DNA of 35,271 nucleotides from an uncultured Lachnospiraceae bacterium (GTDB lineage: Bacteria; Bacillota; Clostridia; Lachnospirales; Lachnospiraceae). Position numbers and translations under genes: made by a program. Under the pieces are notes generated by a model. The model saw only the letters and a program-made list of their open reading frames with translations, did no database searches and had not been told where the DNA came from. Location of the stretch: contig CADBRN010000010.1 of NCBI GenBank assembly GCA_902797025.1, positions 1-35,271 on the forward strand, given 5' to 3'. This document shows, piece by piece, positions 19,347 through 34,451 of the stretch; the stretch's first letter is position 1, and each line of letters opens with the position of its first letter.

Positions 19347-19393
19347 AACTGGAACCTTTCAGAAACAGGATCGTCTGTTCCGATCCAACGTCC

Positions 19394-19430
19394 GGCGCGC
19401 CGCCGTCGCTGTCAGGGCAGGCGGCGCGCC
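19394..19430 (-). terminator. GC-rich hairpin between binding protein and permease genes
   Basis: A perfect 11-bp stem GGCGCGCCGCC / GGCGGCGCGCC with a 15-base loop. On the transcribed (minus) strand no T run follows, so it more likely stabilises the binding-protein mRNA than terminates it fully. This arrangement commonly gives more binding protein than permease. Confidence 0.55.
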
Positions 19431-19483
19431 AATTTTATAAATCAGGATTCATTCTTTCACTCGCTGCATGATCCGTCCATTGA

Positions 19484-20794: not shown

Positions 20795-20863
20795 GTCTTA
20801 TATCCTCCTCCTTATTAATAAAAGACATCGGTCCATTGATACCAGATTATTTATACCGGCGGA

Positions 20864-21697
20864 TCAGCTCTTTACCGCTCCGCTCGAAAGTCCGGAGATC
20901 AGATAGTTCTGCGCGAAGATCACGAACAAGGTGATCGGGATGACGGAAATCACGCCGCCTGCCGCGACCAGTCCGAAGTTTGTAAGATTATCCTCCGTAT
21001 TCAGCGCGGCGAGTGCGATCGGCACTGTATTGTTCGCCGGCGACTGAATGAAAATGATGCTGTAGGTGTACTCATTCCATGCATACATAAAGGACAGCAT
21101 CGCGATGGCCGCAATTCCCGGAGCAACGAGAGGCAGTACGATCTTCCGGAACAGCTGCCACTCGGTCGCACCATCGACTTTTGCGGACTCCTCGATTTCT
21201 TCCGGAAGTTCCGCGAAGAACCCGATCATGTACCAGATGATCAGCGTGATGTTGATCAGTACGCACGCCAGAATCACCGGAACTTTTGTGTTCAGGATCC
21301 CGAGTTTTGAGAACATCGTGTACAGCGGAATCGTAAATGCAACCGGCGGAAGAATACGGATGATCATGATCCAGAACGAGATCGGCTTTTTCATGCCGAA
21401 GCGGAACCTGTGCCGCGCAAGAACGTACGCGGTACAAAGTCCGATCGTCAGCGAAATCGCTGTCGAAATCAGTGTCGTCTGAAGAGAATTTCCGATTGCC
21501 TTTCCGAACCCGTTGTCCGTGAACAGAGCGAGGAAATGTTCCCCTGTCAGCGCGTGCGGAATCAGTGAAATATGTCCCTTCATCTCCGACATCGGGCGGA
21601 TCGACATACCGATCAGCCAGTAGATCGGGAAAAGCGCGATCAGAAGCAACAGCGCTGCGATGATCGCTTTCACCACACTCACCCATTTTTTATGCAT
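20864..21697 (-). CDS. Carbohydrate ABC transporter permease (MalG/UgpE-like)
   Basis: 277 residues with six hydrophobic segments. The EAA loop reads EESAKVDGATEWQLFRKIVLP. It is the partner of the MalF-like permease. The ATG at 21697 has GAAGGAGG 6 bases upstream; a GTG one codon earlier is less likely. It directly follows the LacI regulator gene (97 bases). No ATPase gene is present in the operon, so a shared ATPase of the MsmX/UgpC type is likely to energise it. Confidence 0.93.
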   Translation of the reverse strand: MHKKWVSVVKAIIAALLLLIALFPIYWLIGMSIRPMSEMKGHISLIPHALTGEHFLALFTDNGFGKAIGNSLQTTLISTAISLTIGLCTAYVLARHRFRFGMKKPISFWIMIIRILPPVAFTIPLYTMFSKLGILNTKVPVILACVLINITLIIWYMIGFFAELPEEIEESAKVDGATEWQLFRKIVLPLVAPGIAAIAMLSFMYAWNEYTYSIIFIQSPANNTVPIALAALNTEDNLTNFGLVAAGGVISVIPITLFVIFAQNYLISGLSSGAVKS

Positions 21698-21794
21698 CAC
21701 TTTCCTCCTTCGCTGGCGGCTTTTGCCGCTTCTGTATCGATTGTTCTGAATTGTCCGGCGGCCGCCGCCGTCTTATCTTATTGATCGATCCGGA

Positions 21795-22772
21795 TCAGGT
21801 CGATCCCCGGATGACCAGCTTCGGTTCGATCACAAACCGGTTCTTTTCCGGTTTATTTCCCGATAGAAGATCGAGCATCAGCTTCGCCGACAGCTCGCCC
21901 ATCCTTGTACAGTCGGTATGAACCGAGGACAGTTCCGGCTCAAGCGCCTCGCAGACCCTTGAATCATCGTAACCGATGACTGCGACGTCATCCGGTATCT
22001 TCCGTCCGAGACGAATCGCCGCTTTCATGGCGCCGGTCGCGATCACATCGTTCGCTCCGAAGATTGCCGTCGGAGGATCCTGCTGGATCAGAATTCTCTC
22101 CGCCTGTCTTTCCGCATCCGGAATATTCGGATCGCAAATTCTGACGTACCGGTCCGGGATAGGGAGTCCGTGTTCCTTCAGCACTGAGCAGAACGTATTG
22201 AATCGGACTTCACAGATATAGGGAGAAAACCGGCCCGCGAGCATCGCGATTTTCCTGTGCCCGCGGCTGATCAGATGCTCCACCGCCATCCTCACGCCGG
22301 TCTGCTCGTCCGAAACGACGCGCGGAAAATCAAACCCCCCCAGCTCATGGTTGACGAGAACAATCTTCGTGTTCTGTCTCACATAGCCCGAAATCATCCC
22401 GACTGTCGCGCTTCCTCCGAGAATCACGCCGTCTACCTGATTTCTTCGCGTGCTTCCCCAGTCATCCGCCGTGGAAACAAGCAGCCGGTAATCTGCATCT
22501 TTCGTCACACGCATGATTCCGTCACAGATTCCCGCGTAAAATTCATCCAGAATAGAAGAATCATGCTTGCATATCAGAAAAGCGATGTGCTCGGTCGTCT
22601 GGCGTGCCATCGACTGTGCGATCGCGTTCGGCTGATAGTCGAGAATCCTCGCTGCCTCCATCACCTTCGCCCGCGTCGCCTCCCGTACACTTTCCGGATT
22701 TGAAAATGCTCTGGACACCGTCGCTGTCGATACACCGGAAAGCCGGGACACATCTTTAATCGTGTGAGCCAT
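21795..22772 (-). CDS. LacI-family transcriptional regulator
   Basis: 325 residues. The N-terminal helix-turn-helix and hinge (MAHTIKDVSRLSGVSTATVSRAFSNP) are typical, followed by a periplasmic-binding-like sensor domain. The ATG at 22772 is chosen because AAGGGAAG lies upstream and the domain begins there; the frame is open 14 codons further. It is the first gene of the sugar ABC operon and probably represses it until the sugar is present. Its leader carries a TGTAA-N4-TTACA operator, and similar sites occur at 23040 and 31104, so it may also control neighbouring genes. Confidence 0.94.
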   Translation of the reverse strand: MAHTIKDVSRLSGVSTATVSRAFSNPESVREATRAKVMEAARILDYQPNAIAQSMARQTTEHIAFLICKHDSSILDEFYAGICDGIMRVTKDADYRLLVSTADDWGSTRRNQVDGVILGGSATVGMISGYVRQNTKIVLVNHELGGFDFPRVVSDEQTGVRMAVEHLISRGHRKIAMLAGRFSPYICEVRFNTFCSVLKEHGLPIPDRYVRICDPNIPDAERQAERILIQQDPPTAIFGANDVIATGAMKAAIRLGRKIPDDVAVIGYDDSRVCEALEPELSSVHTDCTRMGELSAKLMLDLLSGNKPEKNRFVIEPKLVIRGST

Positions 22773-22857
22773 CTGTCCACTTCCCTTCAGACCACTATAT
22801 TTTCCACCGGCCATTCAGCCGTTCGTCCGGTACAGCTGCCCCGCCGCAAGGTTTGAA

Positions 22858-22871
22858 TGTAAACGCTTACA
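22858..22871. promoter_or_regulatory. LacI-type operator 1 (or cre site) in the lacI leader
   Basis: TGTAAACGCTTACA, with 5-bp inverted arms and central CG, about 45 bases downstream of the predicted lacI transcription start. It fits a LacI-family operator (autoregulation by roadblock) and also the CcpA cre consensus, so either factor could bind. Confidence 0.6.
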
Positions 22872-22916
22872 TTTATAAAACATACGCATTTTCTGCTTCC
22901 CTCACTGGATAGGGTC

Positions 22917-22945
22917 ATCTTACCATCAGTACGAGGGTTTTTCAA
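22917..22945 (-). promoter_or_regulatory. Promoter of the lacI-ABC-MBL operon
   Basis: Reverse strand: TTGAAA (22940-22945), 17-base spacer, TAAGAT (22917-22922). Transcription would start near 22910, giving a leader of about 135 bases. Confidence 0.55.
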
Positions 22946-23039
22946 GTAAAATGCAGGTAAAATCACGATATTCAGTTATTGTTTACAGAATTTATTAGAT
23001 ATTTTGTGCACTTTTTATGTGTTCACAGTTTGGGCACAT

Positions 23040-23053
23040 TGTAAATGTTTACA
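23040..23053. promoter_or_regulatory. LacI-type operator 2
   Basis: TGTAAATGTTTACA has 6-bp perfect inverted arms around a TG centre. It resembles the sites at 22858 and 31104 and lies about 95 bases upstream of the lacI promoter -35 box, a distance that would allow DNA looping with operator 1. Confidence 0.5.
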
Positions 23054-23071
23054 CGTTTTTTACATTAGAAA

Positions 23072-23152
23072 GGGAAATCCCCTGGGTACAACAGCCGGCG
23101 TTCGCGATTTCCTCGCTCTCCTGCCGATGCTTTTGTACCCGGGGGATTTCCC
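23072..23152 (-). repeat. Long inverted repeat (20-bp arms), possible terminator of the kinase operon
   Basis: Arms at 23072-23091 (GGGAAATCCCCTGGGTACAA) and 23133-23152 pair over 20 positions with a single mismatch or G-U pair; the loop is 41 bases and contains short stems of its own. On the minus strand it lies about 120 bases beyond the kinase stop at 23270 and is followed by TTTCTAATG, so it may terminate or protect that mRNA. It is larger than a normal terminator. Confidence 0.55.
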
Positions 23153-23269
23153 GGCGGGTGGTTTCCCGGAAAGGTGATTCAGACGGTATTTTTCAGTTCT
23201 TTCGGACCGCACAGGGCAGCCGCAGCACGTTTCGCCCGGACGGTGCGCGGGAAGACAGAAAAGCGTGTA

Positions 23270-24160
23270 TCAATCCATGTAGAATTCGCGGATATATCGT
23301 TCTACGTCTTCTCTTGTTCCGCAGAACGGTCCCGGCGTCTCCATCTTGAGTGATACCAGGGCTGTCGCGAACAGCAGTGCGTCTTTCATGGTGTGGCCGA
23401 GGCGCTCGACGAGATAGCCTGCAAACGTGGTATCGCCTCTTCCGGTACGTCCTACGAGGCTTCGCGCGCGGATCGGGCTGACGCAGTATTCGTTTCCGTC
23501 GTATGCAAGGACTTCCGTGTTATGCGTGATGACAATTTCCTTCGCGCCCCACTCATGCAGAATCTTCGCCGCCTCTTTCCTGTCGTCGGTTCCGGTCAGA
23601 ATCTTCGCTTCCGCCGCATCCGTTTTCAGGAAGTCGATGTACGGAAGGTATTTTTTCTTATTCTCCCAGTCATAAAAATTCATCGAACCGTCCGCTTCGC
23701 CGTGCCGGAGCAGGCACTGTACATCCACAGCCACTTTTCCCTTTTCCGACGCTTTGACAAAAAGTTCATCCGGAAAGTCGCCGTACGTCAGCCCGGCGAA
23801 ATGATAAATCTTTGTATCCACCGGCGGGAGATCTTCGAACGCGAACGAATCACTCTTGGACAGGAGCGTGCACTCACGCGTCTCCTTGTCCTCCGTGAAA
23901 TACTTATTCCGGATCGAGGTTGTGTGCGCGGACAGTTTCCAGTAGACGTCCGCCGGACAGTTTTTAAAGGCATCATACACATCGGCATCCGCCGGATTCA
24001 GCTTTGTGAAAACAGCCGTTCTTCCGCCGATATTCGAGGCAGCGTAACCGGACTGAATCACAGCTCCGCCGGTCAGCCGGTCTTCGTGATCATGACAGTC
24101 GATCATGATATCGAGCGAAAGCGGACCGATCACCATCGTGTCATATGCAGGTTTTTTCAT
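23270..24160 (-). CDS. PfkB-family kinase, paralogue A, with a GRGD motif
   Basis: 296 residues, no signal peptide. The fold starts with MVIGPLSLDIMID, and GGAVIQSGYAASNIGG is the substrate-side motif. The usual GAGD ATP/catalytic motif is GRGD here (RTGRGDTTFAGYL), keeping the catalytic Asp. It is closely related to the kinase at 30.1 kb, most strongly over FLKTDAAEAKILTG and the C-terminal third. It is the last gene of the operon binding protein-permease-ATPase-kinase, 176 bases after the ATPase gene, with GGAGG upstream. It probably phosphorylates the sugar or polyol moiety brought in by the transporter; the substrate is unknown. Confidence 0.87.
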   Translation of the reverse strand: MKKPAYDTMVIGPLSLDIMIDCHDHEDRLTGGAVIQSGYAASNIGGRTAVFTKLNPADADVYDAFKNCPADVYWKLSAHTTSIRNKYFTEDKETRECTLLSKSDSFAFEDLPPVDTKIYHFAGLTYGDFPDELFVKASEKGKVAVDVQCLLRHGEADGSMNFYDWENKKKYLPYIDFLKTDAAEAKILTGTDDRKEAAKILHEWGAKEIVITHNTEVLAYDGNEYCVSPIRARSLVGRTGRGDTTFAGYLVERLGHTMKDALLFATALVSLKMETPGPFCGTREDVERYIREFYMD

Positions 24161-24203
24161 TTGAACATTCCTCCTCTGTTTTGATTCACCCCGTCATACG
24201 TAA

Positions 24204-24241
24204 TGCGGCGGCCGTTCTGCCGGGGCAAAACGGCCGCCGCA
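24204..24241 (-). terminator. GC-rich 13-bp hairpin between ATPase and kinase genes
   Basis: TGCGGCGGCCGTT / AACGGCCGCCGCA with a 12-base loop. No T run follows on either strand, so it may be an mRNA-stability or processing hairpin inside the operon rather than a strong terminator. Confidence 0.5.
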
Positions 24242-24282
24242 CGGGCAATATTGTATTCTGCCCGGAGTTAAATTGCAACTTT

Positions 24283-24300
24283 GTAACGAAAACTTCCTGC
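24283..24300 (+). repeat. Copy 2 of the CGAAAACTTCC motif
   Basis: GTAACGAAAACTTCC (24283-24297) is identical to 28827-28841, and CGAAAACTTCCTGC to 10920-10933. It lies in the gap after the ATPase gene and, unlike the 28.8-kb copy, has no inverted partner nearby. Confidence 0.5.
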
Positions 24301-24336
24301 CGCGCCGCGCTATGAAATACCGTCTGCGGATCGGCT

Positions 24337-25458
24337 TTATCGCAGTACGCGGACGCTCCCTTCGACAAGCGAGAGAGAAACTTCCTGTCCCGCCGCATAA
24401 CGCTCATGAAGCTGCGGATTGTAGGTTTCTACGATATACTGTGAATCGCCGAGCATGAGTGCGTATTCGATTTTTGATCCGTAATACGTCGCACGTGCGA
24501 CTTTGCAGCGGAAGACACCCTCCTTCGAAGAGAGTTTCACTCCCTCCGGACGGAAGCAGAGGCAGCAGTCCGATCCGGCTTCGACATCCTGCATCGCTCC
24601 GGGTTTCGGCACAAGCATCTCTCTTCCACCGACCCGTACGACTGCTCCGTCCGGACCTTTCGATACGAGCGTTCCGTCGATAAAATTCGCCTTGCCGATG
24701 AAGTTCGCGACGAAACGGTTGACCGGCTGCTCGTAAATTTCCATCGGCGTTCCGACCTGCTGGATTACCCCGTCCTTCATGATGACGACCTTATCGGAAA
24801 TTGCCATTGCCTCAGACTGATCATGCGTGACATAGAGCGATGTAATTCCAAGCCTCTGCTGAAGGGCTCTCAGATCATCCCGCATCGTCTCGCGCAGTTT
24901 TGCATCCAGATTAGAGAGCGGCTCATCAAACAGCAGTACGCTTGGTTCGATTACGACCGCGCGGGCGAGAGCGACTCTCTGCTGCTGGCCTCCGGAAAGC
25001 TGATTCGGGAACCGGCGCTCCATGCCTTTGAGCTGCATCATCTCAATAACCGCGTCGGTTCTCTTTGTAACCTCCTCCGGAGGACGTTTCGCGACACGCA
25101 GACCGTATGCGATATTTTCATAGATGTTCATATGCGGAAACAGCGCGTAGCTCTGGAATACCATTGAAATTCCACGTTTGTTCGGCGGAATCTTCGCGAC
25201 GTCGCGGTCTCCGATATAAACACTGCCGCTCGTCGGATATTCAAACCCCGAGATCATCCGGAGCGTCGTCGTTTTTCCGCACCCCGAAGGTCCCAGAAGG
25301 GTCACCATCTCGCCGGAATTCACTTTCAGATTGATATGATTGACGGCTGTAAAATCCTTGCCGGTATCCGGCTGCTGAAATACCTTCGTGATGTCTTTGA
25401 GAACTACTTCCGAGCTTTTCCTTCCCAGATTCACTCCCGTATTATTCATTTCGCTCAT
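24337..25458 (-). CDS. ABC transporter ATP-binding protein (FbpC/PotA type)
   Basis: 373 residues. Walker A GPSGCGKTT, Q-loop VFQSYALFPHM, signature LSGGQQQR, Walker B VLLFDEPLSNLD and switch His (YVTHDQSEA) are all intact. A C-terminal TOBE domain from about residue 270 is typical of the CUT1/FbpC/PotA branch. GGAGG lies 7 bases before the ATG at 25458. It is encoded 30 bases after the two-domain permease and energises that permease. It could also be the shared ATPase of the sugar transporter at 18.5-21.7 kb, which lacks its own, but this is a guess. Confidence 0.94.
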   Translation of the reverse strand: MSEMNNTGVNLGRKSSEVVLKDITKVFQQPDTGKDFTAVNHINLKVNSGEMVTLLGPSGCGKTTTLRMISGFEYPTSGSVYIGDRDVAKIPPNKRGISMVFQSYALFPHMNIYENIAYGLRVAKRPPEEVTKRTDAVIEMMQLKGMERRFPNQLSGGQQQRVALARAVVIEPSVLLFDEPLSNLDAKLRETMRDDLRALQQRLGITSLYVTHDQSEAMAISDKVVIMKDGVIQQVGTPMEIYEQPVNRFVANFIGKANFIDGTLVSKGPDGAVVRVGGREMLVPKPGAMQDVEAGSDCCLCFRPEGVKLSSKEGVFRCKVARATYYGSKIEYALMLGDSQYIVETYNPQLHERYAAGQEVSLSLVEGSVRVLR

Positions 25459-25488
25459 GGCAAAACCTCCATTTTCCTGACTGATACG

Positions 25489-27243
25489 TTACGCCGCCTT
25501 CTTCTCACTCGTTTGAACACGCGCCGCGGCGCTCTCTTTCGGAACCTTCGACCGCGGGGAAAGAAGAACTTTGATCACCCGGTCGAAAATACCGATAAAT
25601 ACGAGAAGAATCACGATCATCATTGTGACGAATGCAGCTGCCTGCCCGTATTTTGCCTGATCAAACAGGGTATAAATCTTCGTCGTGATCACATTCCACT
25701 TCGGCGATACGAGGAAGATGACGGCACTGACCGCAGTGATCGCTTTCACAAACGAATAGACGAGTCCCGAGAAGAATGCGTTCCGCAGCATCGGGAGCGT
25801 GATCCTCCGGAAGCTGTAGCCTGTATCCGCCCCGAGCACTGTCGAAGCCTCCTCGATGGAATTATCAATCTGCAGCAGTGTCGTCGTACCCGATTCGACC
25901 GCGACCGGCATGTTTCTGAAAATAAATACGATCACAAGAATCGCAGCCGTACCGGTCAGAACGATCGGTTTCGTGTTGAACGCAAGGATGTAGGAAATAC
26001 CGAGAACCGTACCCGGTACCGCGAACATCAGAACCGACGAAACCTCGATGAATGTCTTGCCATAATAATGACGTTTTGCCGTGATATACGCGATAACCAT
26101 ACCGAACAGTCCGCCGATCAACGCGGAGATCAGCGCGAGAATCATCGACGTCTTCAGTGCGTCAAGTCCGTAGCTGAGTGCCTTCTTATACTGGCGCAGC
26201 GTGATCGACCAGTCATACCCCCACGTCTTGATGAAAGAGGCCGCGATGACGGTTCCGTACAGGAGGATGACGATACATGCCACTGCCATGCAGATCGCGA
26301 ACAGCGGATATTTGATGCGCTTTTCATCGATCATCTTGCGCGCCTGGGTCGGTTTGCCGGTGACCGTCACAAAGCTCTTCTTATTTACCCAGTATTTGTT
26401 CAGCAGATACGCGATCACGGCAGGGATCAGCAGCAGCAGCGAGAGCGCGGCGCCCTTCCGCATATTGTACGATCCGGTGATGGTCGTGTAAATTTCGATC
26501 GAAAGCGTTGTGAAATCTCCTCCGATGGTGGCAGGATTCGAGAAATCCTCAAGAGAGGAAATAAATACCAGCAGCATCGCGGAAATAACACCCGGAAGAG
26601 ACAGCGGGAACGTCACCGTCCAGAAGGTCTTCCACCTCCCGGCGCCCATGTTGCAGGCCGCATCCTCGACCGAAGCGTCAATCGAACTGAGGATTCCGGA
26701 CAGCGTAAGGTAGGCGATCGGGAAGAATGACATCACCTGCACGATGATCAGCGACGTTGCGCCGTAGACATTGTTCCCCCGGATACCGAGCAGTGACTTT
26801 GTGATCAATCCCTGCTTTCCAAATAAGAAGATGATCGAAAGGGAAAGGACGAACGGCGGGGAAAGGATCGGAAGCGTTGCGATCGCCTTGAGAAATCCCT
26901 TGCACGGGACGTTCGTTCTCGTAGTGGTGTAAGCGAAAATATAGCCGATGAACGTCGCGATCAGGGCGACTACCAGACCCAGAAGAAGCGTTCTCCCGGT
27001 CGTTTTCATATATCTGGAAGTCGAAAGGATCGAAATCAGGTTCGACATCGACGCGTGACCGCTCTCGTCTGTAAAACTGAATGCAAGCATCTTAACGAGC
27101 GGATATATGACAAAAAGCAACAGGAGCGCGATAACAACGATGATCGTGATCAGAAGCACCGGCTGGCGTGCGATCATCTTCGTCTCGTTTCTCCTTTTTT
27201 CGCGGGCGATGCTTCTCCCGCTTCTCCCTGTATTCTCTGCCAT
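25489..27243 (-). CDS. Two-domain ABC transporter permease (FbpB/AfuB-like)
   Basis: 584 residues with about 12 hydrophobic segments forming two fused permease halves. Each half has an EAA-type loop: first EDAACNMGAGRWKTFWTVTFPLSLPG, second EEASTVLGADTGYSFRRITLPMLR. Such fused permeases occur in iron (FbpB), putrescine-like and sugar-phosphate (AfuB) systems. A Lys/Arg-rich cytoplasmic N-terminus precedes the first helix. GGGAGG lies upstream of the ATG. A terminator-like hairpin lies between the binding-protein gene and this one. Confidence 0.92.
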   Translation of the reverse strand: MAENTGRSGRSIAREKRRNETKMIARQPVLLITIIVVIALLLLFVIYPLVKMLAFSFTDESGHASMSNLISILSTSRYMKTTGRTLLLGLVVALIATFIGYIFAYTTTRTNVPCKGFLKAIATLPILSPPFVLSLSIIFLFGKQGLITKSLLGIRGNNVYGATSLIIVQVMSFFPIAYLTLSGILSSIDASVEDAACNMGAGRWKTFWTVTFPLSLPGVISAMLLVFISSLEDFSNPATIGGDFTTLSIEIYTTITGSYNMRKGAALSLLLLIPAVIAYLLNKYWVNKKSFVTVTGKPTQARKMIDEKRIKYPLFAICMAVACIVILLYGTVIAASFIKTWGYDWSITLRQYKKALSYGLDALKTSMILALISALIGGLFGMVIAYITAKRHYYGKTFIEVSSVLMFAVPGTVLGISYILAFNTKPIVLTGTAAILVIVFIFRNMPVAVESGTTTLLQIDNSIEEASTVLGADTGYSFRRITLPMLRNAFFSGLVYSFVKAITAVSAVIFLVSPKWNVITTKIYTLFDQAKYGQAAAFVTMMIVILLVFIGIFDRVIKVLLSPRSKVPKESAAARVQTSEKKAA

Positions 27244-27272
27244 CTGAAGACCTCCCTATGTTTCTTCGATTA

Positions 27273-27306
27273 AAAAAGGGGCTTCCGAGCGGGGAGCCCC
27301 CTTTTT
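27273..27306 (-). terminator. Terminator between binding-protein and permease genes
   Basis: On the minus strand a GC-rich stem (GGGGGCTCCCC against GGAAGCCCC, one mismatch) is followed by TTTTTT. It lies 34 bases after the binding-protein stop, so it should cut most transcripts there and make binding protein more abundant than permease. Confidence 0.7.
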
Positions 27307-27339
27307 CACTGACCGGAGTGTTTTCCGGAGACATCGGTT

Positions 27340-28500
27340 TTACTTGGCGTCCTCTTCCGGTGCCGCGATCACATCGGATTCAAATCTCGCGGTCAGAGTC
27401 GACTTATTGTCCGCTGCCCAAGTCGCATCATAATCGATGCATTTTACCTGATCGAGAGTCACCAGTCCGTCTGCTACCGTCGCTTTGGAGTTCGTCGGTA
27501 CACGGAAAGAATCATTCTCAGCGTAGAGATTCTGTCCGTCCGTGGAAGTCATCCAGTCGATGAACTTCTTCGCGTTCTCCTGCTCGTCTGCCGGCCCGTT
27601 CTTGATGAGTGCGCATGCGCCTACCTCGTATCCCGTTCCGTCATCCGGGAAGGAAAGCTCGATCGGATATCCCTCAGCCGTCGGCTGCAGTCCGTCATGC
27701 GAGAACGTGATGGCGATCGCCGCCTCGCCCTGTGCGACCGCGTTCGGAGCCGCGGATCCGGACTTTGTGAACTGCGTGATGTTGCCGGAGAGTTTCTTCA
27801 TATAATCAAACGCCTGATCCTCGCCCATAAGCTGAACCAGTGTTGCAAGTACGGTATAAGCCGTACCGGATGTGGACGGATGCGCCATGATGATCTCGTT
27901 TTTATACTTTTCATCGAGAAGATCGTTCCAGCTCTTCGGGTAATCATAACCCTTATCCTCGAACCACTCCTTGTTGCACGCGAATGCGATGCATCCTACG
28001 TAGATCGGATCCCAGCCGCCCTTCGGATCCAGCAGATTTTCCGGCGTGTCGGAAAGTGCTTTGGACTGATACGGCTCGATCAGACCCTGATCTTCCATGT
28101 TGATATAGTTATCGGTCGAACCGCCGAGCATCAGGGCCGCCTGCGGGTTATCCTTCTCAGCCGCGACACGGGTGAGCATCTCGCCCGCGGAAAGGCGGAC
28201 GTAATTGCACTTGATCCCGGTCTGCTCTTCGAATTTCTGGAAATAATATTCAACCTCCGCCTCCGGGAAAGCGGTGTAAACAGAAAGCGAACCGCTGGAT
28301 TTTCCTGAAGATGCGGCATCTTTCGATGCATTTGCGGAACCTGACGAAGACGATGCTGACTTTGACGCGGAAGAAGCCGCTCCCCCGGAGGATGCCGAAG
28401 CGGAGCTGCTTCCGGATCCGGATCCGCAACCCGCAAGCATTCCTGCCGTCATGACACCCGCGAGCATAATCGCTCCAAATTTTCTGAAGTTCTTCCTCAT
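27340..28500 (-). CDS. ABC transporter substrate-binding lipoprotein (FbpA/AfuA-like fold)
   Basis: 386 residues from the ATG at 28500, chosen because AGGAAGGG lies upstream and the signal peptide begins there. Lipobox L22-A-G-C25. An unusually long Ser/Ala/Gly/Lys linker (about 26-70) follows. The mature domain reads LSVYTAFPEAEVEYYFQKFEEQTGI, a type-2 binding protein of the iron/sugar-phosphate group, with HPSTSGTAYT and a C-terminal cap. The adjacent Tyr pair that binds iron in the second lobe of ferric-binding FbpA is not seen near SGTAY, so I favour an anionic organic ligand such as a phosphosugar. It is the first gene of the transporter-kinase operon. Confidence 0.88.
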   Translation of the reverse strand: MRKNFRKFGAIMLAGVMTAGMLAGCGSGSGSSSASASSGGAASSASKSASSSSGSANASKDAASSGKSSGSLSVYTAFPEAEVEYYFQKFEEQTGIKCNYVRLSAGEMLTRVAAEKDNPQAALMLGGSTDNYINMEDQGLIEPYQSKALSDTPENLLDPKGGWDPIYVGCIAFACNKEWFEDKGYDYPKSWNDLLDEKYKNEIIMAHPSTSGTAYTVLATLVQLMGEDQAFDYMKKLSGNITQFTKSGSAAPNAVAQGEAAIAITFSHDGLQPTAEGYPIELSFPDDGTGYEVGACALIKNGPADEQENAKKFIDWMTSTDGQNLYAENDSFRVPTNSKATVADGLVTLDQVKCIDYDATWAADNKSTLTARFESDVIAAPEEDAK

Positions 28501-28661
28501 TGACTGTCCCTTCCTTTCCAACCTTGTGATGTGATAGAACCATCTGCCGCGGAATGCTCCGACTCGTTCCGGGCTTTCCGCAATCCTTTGCGAAAACATC
28601 CGGCTTTCTGTATAGAATTCTATTGCAGCCGTACAAATAATCGCAATGGATTTCTGTGAAC

Positions 28662-28699
28662 TTTACAAGTAAACTATCATTTTGCCCGTGTATTGTCAA
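28662..28699 (-). promoter_or_regulatory. Probable promoter and operator of the transporter operon
   Basis: Reverse strand: perfect TTGACA (28694-28699); at 17 bases the -10 is weak (TAGTTT, 28671-28676), suggesting need for an activator. A TTTAC-2-GTAAA inverted repeat (28662-28673) overlaps the -10 side. Confidence 0.4.
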
Positions 28700-28789
28700 T
28701 AATAATCATGCAATTTTGGCGAATGCTCCAATTTTATTATGCAAATTATGGTGATTCTGCGGATTCGCACACGTTTTCGTTCAAAATAT

Positions 28790-28818
28790 TTTACACAAAT
28801 AGAAACTGCGTGTAATAT
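28790..28818 (+). promoter_or_regulatory. Promoter of the phosphoesterase-kinase operon
   Basis: TTTACA (28790-28795), exact 17-base spacer, TAATAT (28813-28818). Transcription would start near 28825, so the nested hairpin at 28830 forms the very 5' end of the mRNA. A TTACAC-14-GTGTAA inverted repeat spans the spacer and could bind a regulator. Confidence 0.6.
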
Positions 28819-28829
28819 ATATATCAGTA

Positions 28830-28926
28830 ACGAAAACTTCCCATACACCTGATCTGCCGGTGCTTCGCCCTCAGAACCAGGCGCAGGGCGAAGGGCAGCG
28901 CAGATTTTCGGTATGGGAAGTTTCGT
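28830..28926 (+). ncRNA. Nested three-stem inverted repeat in the phosphoesterase leader (candidate structured RNA)
   Basis: Outer arms ACGAAAACTTCCCATAC (28830-28846) and GTATGGGAAGTTTCGT (28911-28926) pair over 16 positions with one bulged base. Middle stem ATCTGC (28852-28857) / GCAGAT (28900-28905). Inner stem CTTCGCCCT (28863-28871) / AGGGCGAAG (28885-28893), perfect, with a 13-base loop. The 5' arm contains copy 3 of the CGAAAACTTCC motif. The fold begins about 5 bases after the predicted transcription start and ends 52 bases before the ATG. I do not recognise a known riboswitch. It could instead be a palindromic DNA repeat. Confidence 0.5.
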
Positions 28927-28977
28927 CAGCAATATGCTCAGAGCCAGATACAATACAACGCAACGGAGGCGGTTCAT

Positions 28978-30063
28978 ATGAAACCAGTCACACTTAGTGA
29001 ACGAAGGAAGTTTGGCAATCTTTTGAAGACGGAAACCCAGGAAACGGTCATGGCAATGATTCCCCAATTTTCAGAAACTGAGACCGGAGCCTTCTCCAAA
29101 CCTTCGATTTTCTTTTCCCCGGATCCGGAAAACAGCGGATTCGGAGCGATGGTTTTTAATATCGAGAGAGGGGTGAACCTCCGGGAAACGATTGATTTTT
29201 TGAACTATTCCGAGGAAATCCGTCCGTTCGATATTATTCTTGCAAATGAACTCGATGACGGCTGTGTCCGTTCCGGCGGAAAGATGGTCGCCCGGGAAAT
29301 TGCGGAAGCTCTCGGGATGAATTATGTGTACGGGCTTGAATTTATCGAACTCGCAAACGAGGACGACCCGAAGGGATTTCATGGAAATGCAATTTTCACG
29401 TGTTTCCCGGTTCTCTGGAGCGAAACTTTCCGTCTGCCCGAGGAAAACAACTGGTACTTTGACCGCCAGACCCGTATCGGCGGGCGCTGTGCGATCTTTG
29501 CCAGACTGAAGATCGGAAGCCGGGAGCTCGGCGTCGTCTCTATGCATCTGGAAAACCGCACGGACGGGGCAGGCAGAAGGCGGCAGCTCGATGCGATCCT
29601 GCGCGAAGCCGGGCGGGTGTTCTCCGGAATCCCGGTACTGATGGGAGGCGATCTGAATACGAACACATTTGACGGCCGTTCCGTCCCTGCGATCGAGTTT
29701 CTCTCGGCGCATCCGGATCTTCTGCGGGACCAGATGGCCCGCGTCGAGGATTACGAGCCCTGTCTGAAGGATGCCGGGAAAGCAGGGTTCGACTGGCGCT
29801 CGGCCTCTTCGGTTTTCGAAAAAGAAAGCGTTCCGTACGCGGATACAAAAGGGACGCGCCGCAAGAAACTGCCGGACGGAACCGATATGCTGCTGCGGCT
29901 TGACTGGCTGCTGCCGAAAGATCTGACCGCCGATTCCGGACGGACAATCTCCACACTCACAAAAGACTGCGGATTCGCGCCCGATGGCAGCGCGCTCGCA
30001 CATTTTGAAAAAAGCGAACTTTCGGATCACAATGCGGTGTGGGCACACTTTCGGTTTCAATGA
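28978..30063 (+). CDS. Endonuclease/exonuclease/phosphatase-family phosphoesterase, cytoplasmic
   Basis: 361 residues. The EEP fold catalyses metal-dependent phosphodiester or phosphomonoester hydrolysis (DNase I, sphingomyelinase, inositol-polyphosphate phosphatase). The catalytic set is complete: Asn61 (FNIERG), Glu91 (ANELDDG), His190 (SMHLENR), Asp225 and Asn227 (GGDLNTN), Asp309 (RLDWLL) and Asp350-His351 (LSDHNAVW). There is no signal peptide or membrane helix, so it acts on an internal substrate. A GGAGG precedes the ATG, and the kinase gene follows 24 bases later. Pairing with a kinase and an uptake system points to cleavage of a small imported phosphoester rather than nucleic acid or lipid. 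Confidence 0.85.
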   Translation: MKPVTLSERRKFGNLLKTETQETVMAMIPQFSETETGAFSKPSIFFSPDPENSGFGAMVFNIERGVNLRETIDFLNYSEEIRPFDIILANELDDGCVRSGGKMVAREIAEALGMNYVYGLEFIELANEDDPKGFHGNAIFTCFPVLWSETFRLPEENNWYFDRQTRIGGRCAIFARLKIGSRELGVVSMHLENRTDGAGRRRQLDAILREAGRVFSGIPVLMGGDLNTNTFDGRSVPAIEFLSAHPDLLRDQMARVEDYEPCLKDAGKAGFDWRSASSVFEKESVPYADTKGTRRKKLPDGTDMLLRLDWLLPKDLTADSGRTISTLTKDCGFAPDGSALAHFEKSELSDHNAVWAHFRFQ

Positions 30064-30087
30064 TCCCCGACCAGACAGGAGGTTAAA

Positions 30088-30975
30088 ATGAATCACGATT
30101 TAATGTTTATCGGTCCCGCCTGCCGGGATGTGAATATTGACTTTGACGGAAGTATCGACCGCGGGATCGGCGGAGCCGTCTACTTCTGCTCTTTCGCCGC
30201 CCGTGCGGTCGGTGCGGATGTGATGAATGCGGTGAAGATCAATCCGGAAGACACCGATGTCCGGGACGCATTCGAGACGGACCGTGATCATATCCGGATT
30301 CTTCCGTCCCGCCTCACGACAAAAATGAAAAACGTTTACACGACTCCGACACGGGAAACCCGCGACGCTTCCTGCGAAGCACAGTCCGACCCGATCCTCC
30401 CCGAAGAAATCCCGGAAGATTCCTGCACGATTTATCATCTCGCGGGACTCCTTTACGGGGATTTTCCCGAACGCCTGATTCCGTATCTGGCAAAGCGCGG
30501 GCAACTCTCAGCTGATATTCAGGGGTTTCTCCGTCACAACGACAACGGACCGATGAATTTCCGCGACTGGGATCAGAAAGAAACGTTTCTGAAATACTTT
30601 GATTTTCTCAAGACCGATGCGGCGGAGGCGAAGATTCTGACCGGCAGCGACGACCGGCGCGAAGCGGCAAAAATCATGCATGACATGGGTGCAGGAGAGA
30701 TCCTGATCACGCACAGCACGGAAGTACTCGTATACGACGGCGACACCTGGTTCACCTGCCCGATCCGTGCCCGCAGCCTTTCCGGGAGAACCGGGCGCGG
30801 AGATACGACGATGGGCGTCTACCTGGCATGCCGGGCGAAGAACCTGCCGATACGCGACGCGCTTCTGTTCGCCACAGCCGCGGTATCGCTGAAGATGGAA
30901 CAGCCGGGACCGATCCGCGCGGACAGAGCGGCGATTCAGTCGTATATTGACGACTTTTACACAGACATCCGGTGA
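30088..30975 (+). CDS. PfkB-family kinase, paralogue B, with a GRGD motif
   Basis: 295 residues. It has the same architecture as the kinase at 23.3-24.2 kb: start LMFIGPACRDVNIDF, GGAVYFCSFAARAVG, then IYHLAGLLYGDFPERL, FLKTDAAEAKILTGSDDRREAAKIM, and SGRTGRGDTTMGVYL with the catalytic Asp after GRG. By eye the two proteins are about half identical, and more in the last third, pointing to a local duplication followed by specialisation. AGGAGG lies 6 bases before the ATG, and the gene is 24 bases after the phosphoesterase gene. The substrate is unknown; the two kinases may act on two related sugars or at two positions. Confidence 0.87.
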   Translation: MNHDLMFIGPACRDVNIDFDGSIDRGIGGAVYFCSFAARAVGADVMNAVKINPEDTDVRDAFETDRDHIRILPSRLTTKMKNVYTTPTRETRDASCEAQSDPILPEEIPEDSCTIYHLAGLLYGDFPERLIPYLAKRGQLSADIQGFLRHNDNGPMNFRDWDQKETFLKYFDFLKTDAAEAKILTGSDDRREAAKIMHDMGAGEILITHSTEVLVYDGDTWFTCPIRARSLSGRTGRGDTTMGVYLACRAKNLPIRDALLFATAAVSLKMEQPGPIRADRAAIQSYIDDFYTDIR

Positions 30976-31049
30976 TGTAACCGGTTAAGAAAGCGTGCTT
31001 CGACATTCCGAATGGATTTGTGCACATTTTCCAGAATTTGTTTTTTATA

Positions 31050-31078
31050 TTGACTTTTTTTCATTATAATGCTATGTT
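31050..31078 (+). promoter_or_regulatory. Promoter before the PHP phosphoesterase gene
   Basis: TTGACT (31050-31055), 17 bases, TATGTT (31073-31078), in an AT-rich stretch. A TATAAT at 31065-31070 lies between them but has no matching -35 box. Confidence 0.45.
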
Positions 31079-31103
31079 GGTTTAGCTCAGACTGTCCCCT
31101 GTT

Positions 31104-31117
31104 TGTAATCGTTTACA
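31104..31117. promoter_or_regulatory. LacI-type operator 3, before the PHP gene
   Basis: TGTAATCGTTTACA has the same TGTAA-N4-TTACA plan and central CG as the site at 22858, and lies 20-30 bases after the predicted transcription start, a blocking position. It could bind the LacI regulator at 22 kb or CcpA. Confidence 0.5.
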
Positions 31118-31151
31118 TTTGACATTCCATATTCCAACGAACAGGAACAGC

Positions 31152-31862
31152 ATGATAACGGAGATGAATCAGAAAATGCGTAAATATAAAATTGAAACCC
31201 ATGTTCATACGACCTATATCTCAAGATGCGGCTGGCTCGGAGCCGGAGCGATCGTCAGCACCTACAAAAAGCTCGGATTCGACGCAGTCTGCATCACGGA
31301 TCATTACAACCGTACCGCTTTTGATTATGCGGGCATCGATCTGACAAAACCGGGAAGCAAAGTTCACGATTATCTGGAGGGATACCGGCGGGTAAAGAAA
31401 TACGCCGAAGACGAGGGCGGCCTGGTCGTCATCCCCGGTGCAGAAGTCCGATTCGACGGATCCGATAACGATTATCTTTTATACGGATGGCATGAAGAGC
31501 TGCTGGCAGATCCTGAACACGTGATGAGCGAGGGTCTGGCCGCATTCGCGAAGGAGTACCGGAAAGACGGCGCGCTGCTCATTCAGGCCCACCCCTTCCG
31601 GAAGGGGTGCACGCCCGCTCCGGCTGAATACCTGGACGGTGTCGAGGTGTACAACCCCTGTCCGCGCCACTTCAGTCACAACGACCGCGCATACGACTAT
31701 GCGAAGGAACACGGACTGATCATGACGGGCGGATCCGACGCACACCGCCCCGGCGAGGAAGGCCTTTCCGGCATTGCAGCGGATATTCTGCCCAGAAACG
31801 GTTTTGAACTTGCGGAGCTGATCCGTTCCGGCGACTACGATCTGATCATCATGGACGAATAA
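31152..31862 (+). CDS. PHP-domain metal-dependent phosphoesterase
   Basis: 236 residues. The PHP metal-binding residues are all present: His17-x-His19 (THVHTTY), Asp50-His51 (ITDHYN), Glu98 (IPGAEV), His147 (QAHPFR) and Asp196-x-His198 (GGSDAH). Family members include histidinol-phosphate phosphatase, the 3',5'-nucleoside bisphosphate phosphatase type and a DNA-polymerase exonuclease domain; as a stand-alone protein it is probably a small-molecule phosphatase or phosphodiesterase. I chose the ATG at 31152 (AGGA 5 bases upstream); a TTG at 31119 is in frame but lies next to the operator. It is followed by mgtC-like genes and is transcriptionally separate from the upstream kinase. Confidence 0.85.
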   Translation: MITEMNQKMRKYKIETHVHTTYISRCGWLGAGAIVSTYKKLGFDAVCITDHYNRTAFDYAGIDLTKPGSKVHDYLEGYRRVKKYAEDEGGLVVIPGAEVRFDGSDNDYLLYGWHEELLADPEHVMSEGLAAFAKEYRKDGALLIQAHPFRKGCTPAPAEYLDGVEVYNPCPRHFSHNDRAYDYAKEHGLIMTGGSDAHRPGEEGLSGIAADILPRNGFELAELIRSGDYDLIIMDE

Positions 31863-31915
31863 GTTGATGATCGATGGATCGTCACGGATCAATTTGTATT
31901 CTCGGAGATGCGGAT

Positions 31916-32650
31916 ATGATTCACGCCTTTGATTATTTCAGGCAGGCAAATTTTGCAGGCGTCGTCATGCGCCTGGTAGTCGCGATGTTCTGCGGCGGCG
32001 TTATCGGGCTGGAACGTGAACGAAAACACGGGGATTCCGGTCTGGCCGGCATGCGCACGTATATGCTCGTATGTATCGGAGCCGCACTTACGATCGAGAT
32101 CAGTCAGTACGAATTTATCATGCTGTCCGGTCCCTGGAAAATGCTTGCAGAACAGATCGGTATCAAGACGGATGTCTCCCGTTTCGGCGCGCAGGTCATC
32201 AACGGCATCGGTTTTCTCGGAGCCGGCACCATCATCGTCACCGGCAGTCAGGAGGTAAAGGGCCTCACGACCGCCGCCGGCCTCTGGGCATCCGCCTGCA
32301 TGGGGCTCGCGGTCGGAGCCGGTTTTTACGAAGCCGTCATTCTTGCTGTGATTCTGATCATCCTGTCGATCGCCGCGCTCTCGAACGTGGAATCTAAAAT
32401 CATCGATATCGCCAGGAACATGAACTTTTATGTCGAATACAATACGATGAATGATATCACCGGCATCATAACTTCTCTGAAGCAGATGGACGTGCGGATC
32501 TACGAAGTCGATATTGAACGCGGCGATTTAAAACGCGGCATCAACCACAGCGCTGTTTTCAACATCCGTCTGAACCGGCGGATGTCTCACACTGCCCTGC
32601 TGATGGATCTTTCACAGCTTGATTCGATCATCACTATCTATGAAATCTGA
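31916..32650 (+). CDS. MgtC/SapB-family membrane protein 1
   Basis: 244 residues. The N-terminal membrane domain has the MgtC signature: GGVIGLERERKHGDSGLAGMRTYMLVCIGAAL and later GAQVINGIGFLGAGTI and KGLTTAAGLWASACMGLAVGAGFY. The C-terminal soluble part (about 155-244) resembles an ACT-like domain. MgtC is linked to growth in low magnesium and to inhibition of F-type ATP synthase in Salmonella; the role in commensal bacteria is unclear. I prefer the ATG at 31916, with GGAG 8 bases upstream, over one 14 codons earlier. It is followed 17 bases later by a second MgtC-like gene. Confidence 0.9.
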   Translation: MIHAFDYFRQANFAGVVMRLVVAMFCGGVIGLERERKHGDSGLAGMRTYMLVCIGAALTIEISQYEFIMLSGPWKMLAEQIGIKTDVSRFGAQVINGIGFLGAGTIIVTGSQEVKGLTTAAGLWASACMGLAVGAGFYEAVILAVILIILSIAALSNVESKIIDIARNMNFYVEYNTMNDITGIITSLKQMDVRIYEVDIERGDLKRGINHSAVFNIRLNRRMSHTALLMDLSQLDSIITIYEI

Positions 32651-32667
32651 CGGAGGGAAAAACGCCT

Positions 32668-33357
32668 ATGCTGTCTATTTTCGACGGACTTCGTCAACTG
32701 AATATGTACTCGGCGGCGTTTCGGCTTTTTCTCGCCGTCATCTGCGGAGGCATCATCGGCCTGGAGCGTGAATTTAAGCGCCGTCCGGCCGGTTTCCGCA
32801 CACACATCCTCATCTGCCTGGGTGCGGCGATGACGACCCTGACCAGCCAGTTCCTGTACCTCTATATGCACTACTTCACGGATATGGCCCGACTCGGCGC
32901 ACAGGTTATCGCCGGAATCGGCTTTATCGGCGCCGGTACGATCATCACGCGCCGCGAGCGGATCAAAGGCCTGACAACGGCGGCCGGCCTCTGGGCCGCT
33001 GCGATCGTCGGTCTCGCCATCGGCGGCGGCTTCTACGAGGGCGCGCTCATTACGACCGTTCTGATCGAGCTGGCGGAACTCGTATTTGCTCAGATCGATT
33101 TCGCATTGCTCAAGCATTCACCGGAAATAAACCTCTACATCGAATACGAGAGCCGGGAGGCCCTCGATACCGTCTTCGCCTACTTCCGTGAAAAGGAAAT
33201 CCGCCTGATCGACCTGGAGATCACCCACTCAAAAGTCACGGCCAAACACAACGCCTGCGCCATCCTTTCGGTCCGGATGAACCGTCATGTCACCGCAGAT
33301 GAAATGATGGTCAAGCTGAAATCCATCAAAGAAATCATCCTCATCGAGGAAATCTGA
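32668..33357 (+). CDS. MgtC/SapB-family membrane protein 2
   Basis: 229 residues and the same two-part build as the preceding gene: GGIIGLEREFKRRPAGFRTHILICLGAAM, GAQVIAGIGFIGAGTIITRRERIKGLTTAAGLWAA, then a soluble C-terminal domain with IYIEYESREALDTVFAYF-like segments. The two proteins share the signature motifs but diverge in the soluble part, so they are an old duplication rather than a recent one. GGAGGG lies 10 bases upstream. They may form a heteromer. Confidence 0.9.
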   Translation: MLSIFDGLRQLNMYSAAFRLFLAVICGGIIGLEREFKRRPAGFRTHILICLGAAMTTLTSQFLYLYMHYFTDMARLGAQVIAGIGFIGAGTIITRRERIKGLTTAAGLWAAAIVGLAIGGGFYEGALITTVLIELAELVFAQIDFALLKHSPEINLYIEYESREALDTVFAYFREKEIRLIDLEITHSKVTAKHNACAILSVRMNRHVTADEMMVKLKSIKEIILIEEI

Positions 33358-33410: not shown

Positions 33411-33461
33411 ACGGACATGAACTGGCACGCCGCTAAGCCGGCGCACGAAATGAGGATGGAT

Positions 33462-34451
33462 ATGATTCAGTTAACGGACTATCTCTATTCCGGCGATACC
33501 GTAATCCGGATCCTGCATAAATACACGCGGGATCTGCTCCTGTCTGCGGGGAATGATCCGGATTCGATCGACCGGACACACGCGGAATTTCTCCAACATA
33601 TGTGCGCGATGCTCGAGCACAATGACTTTCTGACCTCACAGTCTCAGAGAATCCGCGATTTCTACAAATATATGACGCAGCGTTACCCGTATCTTTCTTT
33701 CACATTCCACGGCCGGATCAAATCGCTGATCCGCGCGGAGGAAAAGTTCAACGGCTACATCATCAGCGGCGTATCAAACTATTACGCAAAACACGGCACG
33801 TATCCCTCAGCCCGGGAGCTACGGGATCAGGTCGGCCGTTTCCGCGATCTGATCGCCTACCGCATCGTGATCTCGATGCCCGCCTGTCATCTGAATCCCG
33901 GCGATGACCGGGAGAAGATCGAAATCGCCAGACTGTACGAGATCGCGAATGAGCTTCCGGATTTTCTGGAAGCCCGGGGATTCACACCGGAAGATGCAAA
34001 TATCCGGCAGGAAACGGCCTCCCCTCTCCTTCATGAAAACATTCGCCAGTATTACAAAGATTACATCGCAAACCCGAAATCCTCCGGTTACCGCTCTCTT
34101 CACATCGTGTTTTACGACAACCCGGCCCATTCTTTCACCGAGCTGCAGCTGCGAACGAAGGACATGGACGATTTTGCGGAAATCGGGGACGCAAATCACT
34201 CCATCTACGAGCTGAATCAGCAGAACGAGCGTTCTCATCCTTTTTCCGTCCCGGAAGGCGAATGCATCTGGTTCGACGAAGCGTACCGGCGCGTCCAGTC
34301 GCTCCAGAACCTGGATCTGTCAAAGGTTGACGTCAATATGTTCCGGGCGATGGACAATTACCGCATCAACGACGGGTGCGGACTTTACGCGAGCCGGTTC
34401 ATCCTTCCGTACGAACATCTGTCCCGCTTTCAGAACGATCGGATCGACTGA
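33462..34451 (+). CDS. Stand-alone (p)ppGpp synthetase (RelA/SpoT) domain protein
   Basis: 329 residues from the ATG at 33462 (GAGG 6 bases upstream; ATGs at 33450 and 33417 are also in frame). It carries the RelA/SpoT synthetase signature: FHGRIKSLIRAEEKF (about 82-96), RDLIAYRIVIS (128-138), DYIANPKSSGYRSLHIVF (200-217), TELQLRTKDMDDFAEIGDANHSIYE (226-250). The GTP/ATP-binding and catalytic residues (Arg, Lys, Asp, Glu of ExQxR) look intact. No HD hydrolase, TGS or ACT domain is present. The N-terminal 80 residues and C-terminal 75 residues match nothing I recognise. It would pyrophosphorylate GTP/GDP to alarmone, or possibly tRNA as toxic small alarmone synthetases do. It is preceded by two MgtC genes with its own promoter. 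Confidence 0.85.
   Translation: MIQLTDYLYSGDTVIRILHKYTRDLLLSAGNDPDSIDRTHAEFLQHMCAMLEHNDFLTSQSQRIRDFYKYMTQRYPYLSFTFHGRIKSLIRAEEKFNGYIISGVSNYYAKHGTYPSARELRDQVGRFRDLIAYRIVISMPACHLNPGDDREKIEIARLYEIANELPDFLEARGFTPEDANIRQETASPLLHENIRQYYKDYIANPKSSGYRSLHIVFYDNPAHSFTELQLRTKDMDDFAEIGDANHSIYELNQQNERSHPFSVPEGECIWFDEAYRRVQSLQNLDLSKVDVNMFRAMDNYRINDGCGLYASRFILPYEHLSRFQNDRID

Follow-up and report, generated by a model that had tools for sequence, protein, structure and literature searches.

A divergent gene cluster of an uncultured Lachnospiraceae bacterium with a possible role in the uptake and cytosolic processing of phosphorylated inositol

Organisation of the locus

In this work, we analysed a stretch of 35,271 nt (contig CADBRN010000010.1, assembly GCA_902797025.1), hereafter the window, from the genome of an uncultured Lachnospiraceae bacterium (1.95 Mb, 97 contigs, 90 % complete), focusing on two divergent operons that may serve the uptake and processing of a phosphorylated inositol. 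They encode an AfuA-like substrate-binding lipoprotein (SBP) with its ABC permease and ATPase, two ribokinase-family kinases (KinA and KinB), an EEP and a PHP phosphoesterase and two MgtC-family proteins (Table 1). Genes were called from a list of open reading frames (ORFs) together with Pfam and NCBIfam profile matches, and every part of the cluster belongs to a known family. Loci of relatives are designated by L-numbers and genomes by G-numbers, and published work is cited throughout from excerpts of the papers.

An earlier note on this DNA had assigned seven of these genes to the same families and to divergent strands, as the ORFs and profile matches bear out. It had placed the system at 23270-31862; the genes stand, but these coordinates are too narrow, since two MgtC genes follow and since the operon at 17455-22814 has an orthologous counterpart next to the kinase in other loci. 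The whole system thus spans 17455-33357.

Table 1. Features of the cluster and of the neighbouring operon (window coordinates)
Feature	Position	Strand	Basis
KinA, ribokinase-family kinase, RXGRGD type (that of TM0415, a PPi-dependent inositol kinase)	23270-24160	-	TM0415 match, signature and contact residues, tree
ABC importer ATPase with TOBE_2 domain	24337-25458	-	Pfam, NCBIfam
ABC importer permease, single gene with two fused BPD_transp_1 stretches	25489-27243	-	Pfam, NCBIfam
AfuA-like binding lipoprotein (SBP)	27340-28500	-	structure-sequence matches, residue alignment
Divergent intergenic region, conserved in part with L019	28501-28977	.	sequence comparison
EEP (DNase I-like) phosphoesterase, cytoplasmic	28978-30063	+	Pfam (below cut-off), alignment, AlphaFold fold
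KinB, second RXGRGD-type kinase, in a clade apart from KinA	30088-30975	+	TM0415 match, residues, tree
PHP-domain phosphoesterase	31119-31862	+	Pfam, NCBIfam
MgtC-family membrane protein 1	31874-32650	+	Pfam, synteny
MgtC-family membrane protein 2	32668-33357	+	Pfam, synteny
LacI-family regulator	21795-22814	-	Pfam, NCBIfam
Sugar-type ABC importer (permease 20864-21700, binding protein 19484-20794, permease 18450-19346)	18450-21700	-	synteny, orthology
MBL-fold hydrolase going with the sugar-type importer	17455-18450	-	orthology, synteny

The SBP gene likely starts at the ATG at 28500 rather than at the longer ORF start at 28599, and its product carries a LAGC lipobox (judged by eye). KinB starts 24 bases after the EEP gene, and the true start of the PHP gene, judged by homologues, probably lies a little downstream of 31119. 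An operator search in the divergent region returned weak repeats only. An inverted repeat with 24-nt arms lies at 28834-28923, in a stretch that has no counterpart in L019.

Kinases

Both kinases score weakly against the Pfam PfkB model (47 and 44 bits), and the solved structure that they match best is the Thermotoga maritima protein TM0415 (KinA, E 2e-47; KinB, 3e-49). According to the excerpts of PMC5931981, TM0415 phosphorylates myo-inositol with pyrophosphate (PPi), neither ATP nor ADP serving as donor; it is characterised by the RXGRGD motif and five donor-signature residues (K171, F221, R229, R232 and M266) and contacts inositol through D11, N78, Q141 and R145. According to the same excerpts, its genuine acceptor may be not inositol itself but another compound of inositol catabolism. 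Aligned to TM0415, KinA and KinB both retain the RXGRGD motif, four of the five donor residues (K171, R229, R232 and M266), the catalytic D234 and all four inositol contacts. They differ from it in sequence (29-39 % identity across the aligned set) and in setting, the window holding two paralogues among phosphoesterases and an organophosphate-type importer.

These residues were further surveyed in 38 kinases of at least 240 amino acids (including the frame-broken L079; the fragments in L081, L082 and L092 and the L108 kinase were left out). Among the donor residues, K171 is found in all 38, R229 and R232 in 37 and M266 in 36; among the inositol contacts, D11, Q141 and R145 are found in all 38 and N78 in 33. 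KinA and KinB probably run on PPi instead of ATP. The IolC model TIGR04382 (cut-off 300 bits) is reached by neither, KinB scoring 18.7 bits. In a tree built without L079, the two fall into separate clades (support 85/96 and 100/100), KinA grouping in its own clade with the KinA of G082, which points to an old duplication, and they probably do different jobs.

Two observations concern kinases of other loci: a GH65-type gene adjoins an RXGRGD-type kinase in L087, L088 and L092, a hint of cyclitol-glycoside phosphorolysis, and a purple-acid-phosphatase-type gene with a Kelch protein lies just upstream of such a kinase at L085:6183-8562.

Importer and phosphoesterases

The SBP matches the solved structures 8x1a (E 5e-59), AfuA (4r72, 8e-56) and a pyridoxal phosphate-binding protein (8e-51); a search for the ligand of 8x1a yielded none. 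In AfuA, H205, D206 and E229 are essential (PMC4546632, excerpts), and further ligand contacts are listed in the excerpts of PMC8427247. With the residues assigned visually from the alignment (offset of 2), the His205-Asp206-Glu229 triad is retained in the window SBP, as are the SGT loop and Tyr103, and two of the phosphate and ring contacts are changed, i.e. Ser37 to Ala and the ring-contacting Gln269 to Arg. All six aligned SBPs have Arg at the Gln269 position, and five of them have the triad (L085 lacks it). As the structure model of the SBP is poor (pLDDT 34.5, three-row alignment), these statements on the pocket rest on the sequence alignment. The change of Gln269 to Arg with the triad kept suggests that the ligand is likely a phosphorylated ring differing from glucose 6-phosphate (G6P) at the ring end. 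The system thus resembles AfuABC, the hexose/heptose-phosphate importer of PMC4546632, in being an ABC importer with a homologous SBP and the same triad, and differs from it in the two substitutions and in its partners (EEP, PHP and kinases). A second AfuA-like importer occurs in the same genome (L171, G000:C37:1-13000; SBP 35 % identical), with an adjoining MBL-fold gene.

The EEP protein scores slightly below the Pfam cut-off (22.2 vs 24.5), and no solved relative was found by sequence at E 0.1. The residues that we take to be the catalytic motifs of the DNase I family do not vary among the 10 sequences aligned, and its AlphaFold model (pLDDT 86, pTM 0.90) shows the EEP fold, with 4ruw, nocturnin, TDP2 and neutral sphingomyelinase as nearest folds. 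Predicted fold and conserved residues together place it in the EEP (DNase I-like) superfamily. The PHP protein matches a single solved structure, TM0559 (E 0.001), and is conserved in L019, L028, L075, L078 and L167.

Conservation in relatives

The cluster is a conserved gene set in gut and rumen bacteria, recurring whole or in part. In L019 (G775, same genus), ATPase, permease and SBP genes diverge from EEP-KinB-PHP-MgtC-MgtC; the locus ends within the ATPase gene, which leaves KinA out of view. In L020, KinB and EEP-SBP-permease-ATPase diverge. In L028 (G082), the order KinA-permease-ATPase-SBP-HAD-HAD-EEP-PHP-MgtC-MgtC is divergent from KinB; its EEP is 35 % identical to that of the window and its ABC system is distantly related, the SBP giving no match to the window SBP. 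Importer and EEP genes also stand together in L166 (G639; EEP-SBP-permease-ATPase) and L167 (G761; SBP-permease-ATPase-EEP with LacI and PHP genes), with no kinase in the stretch and a kinase on another contig in both genomes, and in L107 (G793) the importer lies beside MgtC-MgtC-kinase, with the EEP gene on a different contig. Import, phosphoester cleavage and phosphorylation, which the earlier note had read as one gene set, are therefore kept together in relatives; the synteny of the EEP and GRGD-type kinase genes with the transporter, for which it had called, recurs in L019, L020 and L028, and the homologues, far from always occurring apart, are joined in these three loci and in part (importer and EEP) in L166 and L167.

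Seven of the eight genomes found through EEP possess the kinase. Within a same-family comparison set of 397 genomes (kinase, IolD and SBP counts assume one common draw, totals and handles being equal), orthologues of the SBP and importer (E < 1e-150) occur in four, all of them kinase-positive (probability by chance 4e-6). More widely, the partners of the kinase relatives are phosphoesterases (EEP, PHP, HAD and MBL-fold), MgtC proteins and ABC importers. At least one of EEP, PHP, MBL or MgtC was present in 18 of 23 kinase loci against none of 20 control loci, i.e. those around the best-scoring other PfkB gene of 20 kinase-positive genomes, with differing stretch lengths; the corresponding p of 5.5e-8 is optimistic, as the choice of families was itself based on the kinase loci. 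The 23 loci were the window, L064-L080, L027, L028, L106, L107 and L111, with two each from G109 and G761; L081, L108-L110 and the phylum-level L082-L092 were left out of this count.

Link with inositol catabolism

The kinase (E 1e-45) is present in 19 of the 397 genomes, IolD in 45 and both in 15. IolD thus occurs in 15/19 genomes with the kinase vs 30/378 without it (p 1.8e-12, or 6e-11 when the genus of the window is left out, neither corrected for phylogeny, the genomes being related), an association free of the locus-picking bias of the neighbourhood test. The window's own genome encodes IolD (898 bits, cut-off 715) and IolE (400 bits, cut-off 290), and an IolG-like fragment lies at the end of the contig with the iol genes. 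Neither this co-occurrence nor the PPi-dependent inositol type of the kinases had been recognised in the earlier note.

In several relatives, kinase and inositol genes are physically linked. One contig of G606 carries PGK-IolE-IolB-IolD-IolG-like-permease-ATPase-SBP-small ORF-HAD, LacI and HADx4-iPGM-MgtC-kinase (IolE and IolB being assigned by similarity to the genes of the window's genome), and one of G633 carries the kinase, HADs, ABC genes, iPGM, IolG-like, GAPDH-like and PGK-like genes, transketolase halves, IolE, IolB and IolD. L111 combines IolG (448 bits, cut-off 355) with HADs, PHP, kinase, MgtC and ABC genes; in L083, IolM (537 bits, cut-off 450) lies about 6 kb from the kinase; and L090 unites an AfuA-like importer, a kinase and an IolO-like gene in a single locus.

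Compared with the canonical pathway (IolG, E, D, B and C), with which the kinase co-occurs in genomes and shares contigs in relatives, the difference lies in a divergent IolB-like gene in the window's genome and in IolC, which is mostly absent alongside the kinase: true IolC (>300 bits) was found in 4/15 IolD genomes with the kinase vs 27/30 without it (p 3.4e-5, again without phylogenetic correction). The best match to the IolC model in the window's genome is a gene other than KinA and KinB (202 bits). A strict replacement of IolC was rejected, the pattern being a trend only: kinase and IolC coexist in four genomes and are both lacking from G081 and G717, and the IolC of G595 is a fragment at a contig edge. 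By our own comparison, the kinase clades do not separate genomes with IolC from those without. Pre-phosphorylated iol intermediates as the reason for the absence of IolC were set aside on chemical grounds. The IolC trend agrees with the remark in the excerpts of PMC5931981 on the genuine acceptor of TM0415.

Around the iol genes themselves, PGK is found in L142 (G606:C15) and L143 (G633:C19), in G633 together with a GAPDH-like gene, a LarA-like gene and transketolase halves. Neither G606 nor G633 yielded a true IolC, and the lower inositol pathway may be altered there. The iPGM-like gene (L071:6554-8128 and L111:2225-3829) is seemingly circularly permuted, the C-terminal part of the iPGM model being matched by its first 300 residues and the model of the N-terminal domain by a stretch near its end.

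Neighbouring operon

The genes at 17455-21700 are orthologous to a cassette adjoining the kinase in L066, L068, L069, L070, L072 and L079 (identities mostly 60-74 % for the permeases, mostly 49-54 % for the binding protein and 41-49 % over 150 residues for the MBL-fold protein). Given this orthology, the window probably joins two cassettes that stand apart elsewhere, where the sugar-type cassette adjoins kinases of the KinA clade. Beyond the MgtC genes, a RelA/SpoT-type gene at 33417-34451 is kept in L019.

Proposed function and alternatives

From the gene content, homology, residues, synteny and co-occurrence given above, we infer the ligand, the order of reactions, the type of cleavage, the kinase acceptors, the use of PPi and the role of MgtC. 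We hold it somewhat more probable than the contrary that a phosphorylated inositol is taken up and processed in the cytosol by the products of this locus and then feeds a modified inositol pathway. An inositol ester would be imported intact by the AfuA-like SBP with its fused permease and ATPase, our best guess for the ester being a breakdown product of phytate such as inositol monophosphate and our second a diester such as glycerophosphoinositol. The ester would be cut in the cytosol by EEP and PHP (by HAD or MBL-fold enzymes in relatives), and the freed inositol would be passed to the iol pathway, whose genes lie in other parts of the genome. With PPi rather than ATP as donor, the RXGRGD kinases would phosphorylate inositol or an intermediate further along the iol pathway (5-dehydro-2-deoxygluconate) and may take over the IolC step, and the MgtC proteins could adjust the magnesium or phosphate balance. 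The substrate proposed in the earlier note (a phosphosugar, phosphodiester or nucleotide-like compound) is thereby narrowed to a phosphorylated cyclitol. A nucleotide-like substrate, which nothing found here favours, was rejected: TM0415 is the nearest solved structure of the kinases, and no nucleoside-kinase model is among the NCBIfam matches listed. The two other outcomes that the earlier note would have taken as a refutation, binding of ferric iron and action of the kinases on unrelated nucleosides, are made unlikely by the sequences.

Several points weigh against this proposal. Both window kinases have Ile, a residue still hydrophobic, in place of F221 of the PPi signature, and as the five-residue signature is incomplete we call them TM0415-like; Phe is found at this position in 7 of the 38 aligned kinases, all outside the window's family, the rest having Ile, Leu or Val (Ser in L079). 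Four kinase genomes (G601, G618, G660 and G713) lack IolD, and IolC as well. In the window's genome, the IolB-like gene (79 bits, cut-off 205) and the best IolG-like gene (327 bits, cut-off 355) fall short of their models, and no PTP-like phytase was found, other phytase classes not having been searched for. For the AfuA-like importer, L090 is the sole case of physical linkage with iol genes; there, the IolO-like gene scores 286 bits, below the cut-off of 300, and the kinase is changed at N78, S89 and L116. The iol-linked importers of G606, G633 and L111 have SBPs of a different family. An MgtC gene also lies alongside three of three AfuA-like importers without a kinase (L168, L169 and L170). 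Finally, the fold neighbours of EEP include both mono- and diesterases, so that the fold would suit either type of cleavage.

The foremost alternative, which we regard as unlikely, is an ordinary AfuABC-like system, in which G6P or a similar hexose or heptose phosphate would be imported and dephosphorylated by EEP and PHP, the kinases acting on a sugar. It agrees with the retained hexose-phosphate triad and with the kinase-free AfuA-like importers of the family (SBP identity 35-48 %), but the substitutions at Gln269 and Ser37, the TM0415-like nature of the kinases and their association with IolD argue against it. A free or glycosylated cyclitol, or another polyol, trapped by the kinases with PPi while the esterases deal with by-products or with the balance of phosphate, is also unlikely and ranks next. 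The sugar-type importer and MBL-fold gene next to KinA-clade kinases, like the GH65 enzymes next to some distant ones, would suit such a substrate; however, the solved close relatives of the SBP with known ligands all bind phosphate esters, and EEP adjoins the AfuA-like importer in the window, L019, L020, L166 and L167. An importer of 2-aminoethylphosphonate or another phosphonate, with unrelated neighbours, is very improbable: PhnS2, PhnT2 and PhnU2 are the best NCBIfam names of the importer genes, but all score under the curated cut-offs (220/393, 370/458 and 348/593 bits), and no phosphonate-cleaving gene was recognised among the annotated window genes. A ferric-iron importer, a common name for ABC systems of this kind and one given by depositors to some homologous structures, is hardly credible, since the best other putative iron-binding protein matches the SBP only at E 8e-19, far behind AfuA (9e-56) and 8x1a (6e-59) in the same comparison, and EEP and kinase are conserved partners.

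Significance

In the open-licence literature searched, including the excerpts of PMC12482443, PMC7618129, PMC12838507 and PMC9430895, no inositol-phosphate importer and no such cluster is described, in line with the earlier note, which knew of no pathway with this gene set. In the gut phytate use presented in the excerpts of PMC7618129 and PMC12482443, phytate loses its phosphates outside the cytosol, and uptake of inositol follows. The processing of phosphorylated inositol proposed here shares with the Mitsuokella/Anaerostipes case (PMC7618129) the use of inositol phosphates as a carbon source in the gut, and differs from it in that a periplasmic phytase acts before uptake there, whereas the ester would here be taken up and cleaved in the cytosol.

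A wider picture can be offered tentatively, as possible rather than probable: gut and rumen Clostridia would import intact inositol phosphates, and PPi-dependent RXGRGD kinases would replace the ATP-dependent IolC, trap inositol, or both, in an ATP-sparing and phosphate-scavenging route to the carbon of phytate, with EEP, PHP, up to five HADs and MBL each serving particular esters. If the proposed function is true, an inositol-phosphate importer with cytosolic phosphatases would add a step to the use of dietary phytate by gut microbes, and iol gene sets without iolC could be explained. Should an iol intermediate be what the kinases phosphorylate with PPi, this would also answer the question on the true acceptor of TM0415 left open in the excerpts of PMC5931981.

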